Of a stretch of DNA of 23,389 bases, positions 22,966-23,360 are shown in pieces. The stretch is from IMG/VR virus record IMGVR_UViG_3300028377_000058, positions 1-23,389 of that record, one strand, 5' to 3'. How positions within the stretch are numbered: the stretch's first letter is position 1; the number at the start of each line of letters is the position of its first letter. The notes beneath the pieces are model-generated. The model ran no database searches. It was given only the letters and a program-made list of their open reading frames with translations, and was not told the DNA's origin. A program made the position numbers and the translations under genes. This DNA is from a virus.

Positions 22966-22997
22966 TTTGGAGTATATCAAAACATTGCATATATTTG
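22966..22997 (+). promoter_or_regulatory. Consensus Bacteroidota promoter upstream of the leader/tRNA unit
   Basis: TTTG (22966-22969), a 20-bp spacer and TATATTTG (22990-22997) match both boxes of the Bacteroidota primary-sigma promoter (TTTG-N19/21-TAnnTTTG). A start site near 23004 is expected. It lies after the metallophosphoesterase gene and points at the leader ORF and tRNAs. Confidence 0.65.
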
Positions 22998-23042: not shown

Positions 23043-23120
23043 ATGAAAACTATTAACACACATACACATCCAAGAAACCCGAGAAGCTCGGCTGGGTCTG
23101 TAATGTCTATAGTTTTCTAA
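23043..23120 (+). CDS. 25-codon leader ORF of a candidate tRNA-operon attenuator
   Basis: ATG at 23043 opens a 25-residue frame ending at TAA 23118-23120 (M-K-T-I-N-T-H-T-H-P-R-N-P-R-S-S, then A-G-S-V-M-S-I-V-F). It has Pro codons at positions 10 (CCA) and 13 (CCG). CCG is unusual in this AT-rich genome, and lies exactly at the left arm of a hairpin (CCGAG 23079-23083 / CTCGG 23087-23091). The ORF sits between a consensus promoter and an intrinsic terminator, which is the layout of a leader peptide. There is no clear Shine-Dalgarno site, as in most genes here. It could also be a chance frame in a small RNA. Confidence 0.45.
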   Translation: MKTINTHTHPRNPRSSAGSVMSIVF

Positions 23121-23152
23121 CTAATTTAATTAAGTAAAAAACTATAAATAGT

Positions 23153-23187
23153 AAAACCCCAGTCAAGTAATTGACTGGGGTTTTTTT
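23153..23187 (+). terminator. Strong intrinsic terminator/attenuator just before the tRNA genes
   Basis: A perfect 14-bp stem (23153-23166 with 23171-23184; core CCCCAGTCAA / TTGACTGGGG), a GTAA loop and a 7-T tract to 23187. It is only 12 nt upstream of the first tRNA. Confidence 0.92.
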
Positions 23188-23198
23188 GTTTAAAATAA

Positions 23199-23272
23199 CG
23201 GGTAGTAGAGGAGCGGTTTATCTCGATACATTTGGAATGTATAGCACGTTGGTTCGAATCCAACCTACCCGA
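23199..23272 (+). tRNA. tRNA-Pro(UGG)
   Basis: A full cloverleaf: acceptor CGGGTAG / CTACCCG, T8-A9, D-stem GAGG / TCTC with GG in the loop, anticodon stem ATACA / TGTAT, loop TTTGGAA with anticodon TGG (23233-23235), 5-nt variable loop, T-stem GTTGG / CCAAC with TTCGAAT, discriminator A73. The C1-G72 pair and A73 fit bacterial proline identity. No CCA is encoded. Position 37 is A, whereas bacterial tRNA-Pro(UGG) normally has G37. Confidence 0.88.
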
Positions 23273-23287
23273 CAAATAAGAATAAAT

Positions 23288-23360
23288 AGCGAGTAAGTTG
23301 TAAGGGTTTGCATAGGGTGTTTGGATCACTCAGGATACAGTTCGAGTCTGTTACTTGCTA
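23288..23360 (+). tRNA. tRNA-like gene with anticodon TGG, atypical D-arm
   Basis: Acceptor AGCGAGT (23288-23294) pairs with ACTTGCT (23353-23359) with one G-U, discriminator A. Anticodon stem GGGTG / CACTC with loop TTTGGAT gives anticodon TGG (23322-23324). The T-arm is TACAG / CTGTT (first pair T-T) with TTCGAGT. The D-arm does not form a standard stem, position 8 is A instead of the near-universal U, and A1-U72 does not match proline identity. It may be a degenerate or specialised tRNA, or a different isotype misread by eye. Confidence 0.5.

Follow-up and report, generated by a model that had tools for sequence, protein, structure and literature searches.

The window analyzed here, the whole 23,389-base IMG/VR virus record IMGVR_UViG_3300028377_000058, carries at its right end a Bacteroidota-type promoter, an open reading frame (ORF) of 25 codons, a 14-pair terminator, and two transfer RNA (tRNA) genes, both tRNA-Pro(UGG), in that order. 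Based on comparison with counterparts of this unit in other phages, we conclude that it is very probably a ribosome-mediated transcription attenuator that controls a phage tRNA operon, and that its leader ORF would act as a composite sensor of the very tRNAs under its control.

The amino acids encoded by the leaders correspond to the tRNAs encoded behind them. Leaders were chosen by a rule blind to the tRNAs, i.e., the longest ORF ending just upstream of the terminator, and the isotype match was defined as the fraction of leader residues 4 to 22 that are isotypes of the leader's own operon, with a permutation null in which leaders were dealt to other operons. Among 58 nonredundant leaders, the match was 0.508 versus 0.306 in the permutations (z = 13.7; 0/20,000). 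The hypothesis was recorded before tRNA regions of the huge phages were fetched and further contigs were retrieved by leader-start patterns, and the loci obtained afterwards gave 0.427 versus 0.186 (z = 11.2; 0/100,000). Furthermore, when leaders were swapped only within the same genome, which removes the effects of descent and base composition, the match was still 0.454 versus 0.220 (z = 7.1; 0/100,000; 50 leaders from 15 genomes). A later batch of eight more large contigs contained 13 further units, about eight of which showed a close fit; the weak fits were mostly found where ARAGORN detected one or two tRNAs. The rule-picked ORF of L179 (MRMITVVKFSRDNIINR) is probably the wrong one and was kept in the statistics.

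Individual leaders illustrate this correspondence. The first leader of Cellulophaga phage phi4:1 contains the residues Q R L H L Q E L E Q P, and its operon opens with seven tRNAs for Pro, Glu, Gln, His, Leu, Leu, and Arg; the second phi4:1 leader contains N Y C T Y N N S N W S F S Y and precedes Tyr, Ser, Asn, Trp, and Phe tRNAs. Leader MTTSFQQQQQQQINRTD is followed by four tRNA-Gln genes, leader MKTTIKNTSSRSRSSKS (SSRSRSSKS) by Arg, Ser, and Arg tRNAs, leader MKTVNTNIAIVEIAVIGGAEEGV (IAIVEIAVIGGAEEGV) by Glu, Ala, Ile, Val, Gly, and Glu tRNAs, and leader MKNLVNIQPQPQQHPQ by Pro, Pro, His, and Gln tRNAs. The operon behind leader KNLTNILPFMPTVEFQLKI encodes Gln, Phe, Met, Thr, Val, Leu, Glu, Leu, Pro, Ile, and Lys tRNAs. 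As a separate observation, the leader shared by L126 and L318 (MTTIIRNMNNNINRTRTTLGL) is rich in Asn, Arg, and Ile, and a single tRNA (Thr) was found directly behind it by ARAGORN, which may have overlooked other tRNAs there.

The match also has a defined position relative to the RNA structure. With the leaders aligned on the start of the antiterminator arm, it was high only at codons −11 to −2, reaching about 0.7 at codons −10 to −4 against a background of 0.29, and it fell to the background level from codon −1 on. A ribosome stalled at this distance leaves the antiterminator arm uncovered, and the predicted sensor codons of the window leader fall within the zone. Besides, the 5' arm of the terminator is complementary to a stretch of the leader in the same unit (mean z = −2.7; 66% of the 58 leaders at p < 0.05), and leader-terminator pairs from the same unit reached −14.5 kcal versus −9.6 kcal when cross-paired (z = −15.6; 0/20,000). 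Paired changes were also seen among related leaders: CTCGAGT:ACTCGAG in L208 versus CTCGGGT:ACCCGAG in its relatives. Over 43 folded leaders, the mean probability (P) of the antiterminator was 0.88 with a stalled ribosome, 0.72 with no ribosome, and 0.48 when the ribosome had reached the stop codon; the difference between the stalled ribosome and the one at the stop codon (p = 7e-7) is an average effect and does not hold for every leader.

The most serious alternative is that the leader reports a general slowing of translation, in which any stall would suffice and the amino acid content would be incidental. Many leaders do combine a wide mixture of residues with rare NCG codons (CCG, 0.64 versus 0.06), and the codon boxes used for Leu and Ser do not track the anticodons. 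However, the leader residues track the operon isotypes at high significance, also within genomes, and they do so only upstream of the antiterminator arm. We therefore consider this explanation improbable.

In the window itself, the original prediction, made from the letters of the DNA alone, had described a promoter, leader ORF, and terminator standing 12 nucleotides (nt) before tRNA-Pro, and all of the pairings that it named are present (Table 1). The promoter was recognized from the consensus generally known for Bacteroidota; a generic sigma-70 scan near the leader gave a weak site only (9 of 12). The last 3.4 kb of the window contain four terminator-like sites versus 0.7 expected. The leader has two Pro codons, CCA at codon 10 (position 23070) and CCG at codon 13 (position 23079). 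The proposed antiterminator, 23090-96:23158-64, exceeds chance, since the pairing of leader and terminator arm reached −16.4 kcal versus −8.2 kcal in dinucleotide shuffles (p = 0.005).

The RNA of the window was folded as far as the terminator 5' arm, with the ribosome footprint masked at chosen codons. The antiterminator P was 0.016 to 0.09 in the ribosome-free fold, in which a protective stem was present, and rose to 0.81 to 0.99 when the ribosome was placed on codons 6 to 12, so that the structural switch proposed for the window was reproduced. With the ribosome at codon 13, P was 0.41, and at codon 16 it was 0. Codon 13 is a poor stall site because a ribosome there partly covers the antiterminator, and codons 6 to 12, including Pro10, are better ones. 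Of the two Pro codons, Pro10 is thus the better candidate for the suggested stalling.

Units of the same build recur in other phages. Cellulophaga phages phi4:1 and phi17:2, the sole database phages with tRNA-Pro DNA like that of the window, have clusters of more than 20 tRNA genes with tRNA-Pro first, and upstream of it stand a TATGTTTG promoter and an unannotated ORF (MKIQRLHLQELEQPIISGGTGV) whose sequence differs from that in the window. This unit has GGGAGG complementary to CCTCTC of the terminator directly 5' of the tRNA, and in phi4:1 a hairpin CCGAT/ATCGG lies across a CCG codon, resembling the CCGAG/CTCGG hairpin of the window. Scanning IMG/VR for tRNA-Pro genes of this kind revealed further units, and a listing of all tRNAs at those loci showed units also before tRNA-Asn, Thr, Gln, Phe, Ser, Ala, and Tyr. 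In total, leader ORFs occupy the equivalent position in more than 100 related units, and the −7 motif TAnnTTTG was found upstream of 57 of 106 related leaders versus 7.7 expected. Besides phi4:1 and phi17:2, many IMG/VR contigs and the huge-phage relatives of the window carry the unit, and these phages keep the leader ORF, antiterminator, and terminator together, as had been anticipated for related phages, even where the sequences themselves are mostly unrelated. Among cultured phages, the unit is present in phi4:1, phi17:2, and their lines on other host strains; neither tblastn of one leader against isolate phages nor blastn of two tRNA clusters, which gave tRNA or chance matches only, revealed a further isolate with a leader.

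In contrast, the same rule detected no unit in control tRNA regions with 138 tRNAs from nine phages, i.e., T4 and eight phages of Bacillus (three), Streptomyces, Acinetobacter, Cronobacter, Mycobacterium, and Proteus. Likewise, a leader-start pattern searched across 84,980 cellular genomes matched unrelated ORFs only, with no tRNA operon behind them. The system has thus so far been seen in phages with Bacteroidota-type promoters.

These comparisons bear on a more ordinary arrangement, in which the hairpin either terminates transcription of the preceding gene or is an element for RNA processing, the ORF is fortuitous, and the tRNAs are transcribed by run-through or from a promoter elsewhere. 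Being nearly symmetric, the hairpin of the terminator could act on either strand. However, only 12 nt separate the T-tract from the tRNA, the complete unit, from promoter motif through ORF and antiterminator to terminator, stands ahead of other tRNA operons too, with unrelated sequences, the pairing exceeds its cross-permutations, and the control regions are devoid of the unit, all of which makes this arrangement very unlikely. It is just as hard to credit that the stall is caused by the nascent peptide, responding to a small molecule, as in arrest peptides of the erm, secM, and tna type, since, even though the N-terminal motifs MKTLNLHT and MKNLVNI are shared within one leader family, no peptide is conserved across families and the composition, unlike that of arrest peptides, tracks the operon isotypes.

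We propose that attenuation would operate as follows. Transcription would start at the Bacteroidota-type promoter, and the leader ORF would be translated. With all of the sensed tRNAs charged, the ribosome would reach the stop codon, the antiterminator arm would be masked or held in the default leader stem, and the terminator would then halt transcription ahead of the tRNA genes. If any sensed aminoacyl-tRNA became scarce, the ribosome would stall, in the window leader at codons 6 to 12, GGCTGGG would pair with CCCAGTC of the terminator 5' arm, and the polymerase would continue into the tRNA genes. The intervening hairpin would draw segments 2 and 3 together once the ribosome blocks the long stem. 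In many leaders, as the folds suggest, termination would be imposed by the running ribosome and not by a protective hairpin.

Since the leader codons are those of the isotypes of its own operon, each operon would be induced by a shortage of its own charged products, which amounts to feedback control. The idea of a translation-sensed attenuator is supported, and sensing of Pro alone has proved too narrow, because leaders across phages carry the isotypes of the downstream operon. Judging from its codons, the window leader should report His, Thr, Arg, and Asn besides Pro, and tRNA genes for these four are predicted past the contig end. Where the tRNA genes of a phage are split among operons, each with its own leader, they likely constitute a multichannel sensor of the tRNA pool in the infected cell, by which only missing tRNAs would be replaced, e.g., after cleavage by a defense nuclease. 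The phage would gain by replacing tRNAs that the host loses because they run out or are cut.

Several observations weigh against this explanation. No relative sharing the window leader was found, and the window contig stops after the two tRNA-Pro genes, so that Pro is the only isotype that can be checked there. In the automated run on 43 leaders, another pairing run was scored for the window, which yielded a P of 0; the window probabilities quoted above come from the fold that treats the proper pair, 23090-96:23158-64. Support for the antiterminator is weak (p > 0.1) in approximately 11 of the 58 leaders, and many leaders form it even without a ribosome. The hairpin over the sensor codons that was originally proposed is present in the window and is not general, the test for a protective 1:2 hairpin giving a mean z of −0.5 among the leaders. 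Furthermore, codon-box agreement with the anticodons was seen for Arg only (14/18; p = 0.03) and not for Ser or Leu, and some tRNA clusters in unit-carrying phages lack a detected unit.

The mechanism is known from the attenuators of the trp, his, leu, thr, ilvGMEDA, ilvBN, and pheA operons (PMC1183508). Like these, the phage units have a promoter, a short leader with regulatory codons, and mutually exclusive antiterminator and terminator structures, and stalling is predicted to cause read-through. A short ORF lies between promoter and terminator, and an intrinsic terminator precedes the first gene; the regulatory codons match the operon product in the group and, in the window, for Pro as the one checkable isotype; and in the masked folds, on average over the group, a stalled ribosome frees the antiterminator, whereas a ribosome at the end of the ORF does not. 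Unlike in the amino acid operons, the regulated genes encode tRNAs instead of biosynthetic enzymes and are located in phages, up to approximately 10 isotypes are represented in one leader, often by one to three codons each, and the protective 1:2 hairpin of the trp and his attenuators is not a general feature.

Leader-peptide control of aminoacyl-tRNA synthetase genes is exemplified by the pheST attenuator of E. coli. Leader peptides have also been described for hisS/hisZ in bacilli (PMC2965389). In these synthetase attenuators, as in the phage units, a leader peptide governs a gene that supplies charged tRNA, and in the phages the product is the tRNA itself. T-box riboswitches likewise choose between antiterminator and terminator by the charging of a specific tRNA; however, they bind the tRNA directly without leader translation, whereas here an ORF with matched codons would be the sensor, and Rfam at a relaxed threshold gave no T-box match. 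The Rfam model His_leader (RF00514) scored 31.6 bits versus a gathering cut-off of 49, and the His codons of the leader come without a His biosynthetic operon; this and the other subthreshold matches (PyrR, PyrG, and others) were judged to be terminator driven.

The role of phage tRNAs has been debated for decades, with codon compensation and replacement of lost host tRNAs as the competing views (PMC10264068). In the papers on phage tRNAs as an answer to anticodon nucleases and retrons (PMC10264068 and PMC11555353), the phage likewise supplies tRNAs when those of the host are depleted, and the subject is tRNA supply or resistance; in PMC10264068, the words operon and terminator are absent. A paper on huge phages reports up to 67 tRNAs per genome, and its main text lacks the words attenuation, terminator, and leader (PMC7162821). 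We found no description of phage tRNA regulation by attenuation or leader peptides in open-licence full texts, although a report outside these may exist. Thus, tRNA genes appear to be a new class of target for a mechanism whose type is already known. If our interpretation is correct, the phage sequence itself names the inducing signal, i.e., shortage of the same charged tRNAs; supply on demand would be favored over constant codon compensation, which is testable in the cultured phages phi4:1 and phi17:2; the leaders would be natural sensors of many amino acids simultaneously; and phage tRNA operons, as well as members missing from them, could be located from the leader alone.

Table 1. Elements of the putative attenuator and tRNA operon at the right end of the window
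Feature	Positions	Strand	Details
Bacteroidota-type promoter	22966..22997	+	TTTG 22966-69, N20, TATATTTG 22990-97; exact element, read from sequence
Leader ORF MKTINTHTHPRNPRSSAGSVMSIVF	23043..23120	+	ATG 23043, 25 codons, TAA 23118-23120
Long alternative stem	23046..23116	+	AAAACTAT 23046-53 : ATAGTTTT 23109-16; minimum-energy fold, no ribosome
Predicted sensor codons 6-13, Thr His Thr His Pro Arg Asn Pro	23058..23081	+	
Hairpin CCGAG-AAG-CTCGG	23079..23091	+	23079-83:23087-91; overlaps codon 13, competes with antiterminator arm
Antiterminator arm GGCTGGG (segment 2)	23090..23096	+	Partner CCCAGTC 23158-23164
Intervening hairpin TATAGTTTT/AAAACTATA	23108..23146	+	23108-16/23138-46; from folding
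Intrinsic terminator	23153..23186	+	14-pair stem with 4-nt loop, plus T-tract; segment 3 lies in its 5' arm at 23158-64
tRNA-Pro(UGG), first gene of the predicted regulated operon	23199..23273	+	Starts 12 nt past T-tract
Second tRNA-Pro(UGG)	23292..23360	+	29 nt before contig end

The second tRNA-Pro(UGG) of the window is just 69 bases long; repeated isotypes are common in these operons. Proteins encoded in the window are similar to those of the largest assembled phages, and one of 1,248 amino acids shows 42% identity to LR756502 (642 kb) and 41% to LR745206 (635 kb); the huge-phage records considered were these two, LR756504, and LR756501. Searches for relatives of the window by means of its metallophosphoesterase or the exact start of its leader found none, and a search with the sensor pattern THTHPRNP matched only GC-rich unrelated DNA without tRNA genes.

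Some units are built in other ways. L118, L123, L144, and L324 have a separate poly-Gln leader with a terminator before tRNA-Gln genes, in addition to a leader and operon of the Gln/Pro/Asp type; in L118, L123, and L324 the poly-Gln leader directly follows the latter operon, indicating that attenuators can stand in series. The L041 leader, which lies before tRNA-Gln, is followed by two terminators in tandem ahead of the tRNA genes.

Unusual tRNAs and codons were also observed. In L315, a large IMG/VR phage contig of 306 kb with leader MRTLTNIFDFAFFAAEEDYSFG, a tRNA with the anticodon TCA, called SeC, lies between tRNA-Phe and tRNA-Glu and is possibly an opal suppressor. The operons of L123, L133, and L323 include tRNA-like genes for which ARAGORN reported four-letter anticodons (gtag, ttac, and acat) and enlarged anticodon loops. 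The sensor codons are strongly enriched in NCG and other codons that are rare among the genes of the window, which may serve RNA pairing or slow decoding: CCG makes up 64% of the Pro codons in leaders versus 6% in window genes, and the corresponding values are 33% versus 3% for GCG and 26% versus 3% for TCG.
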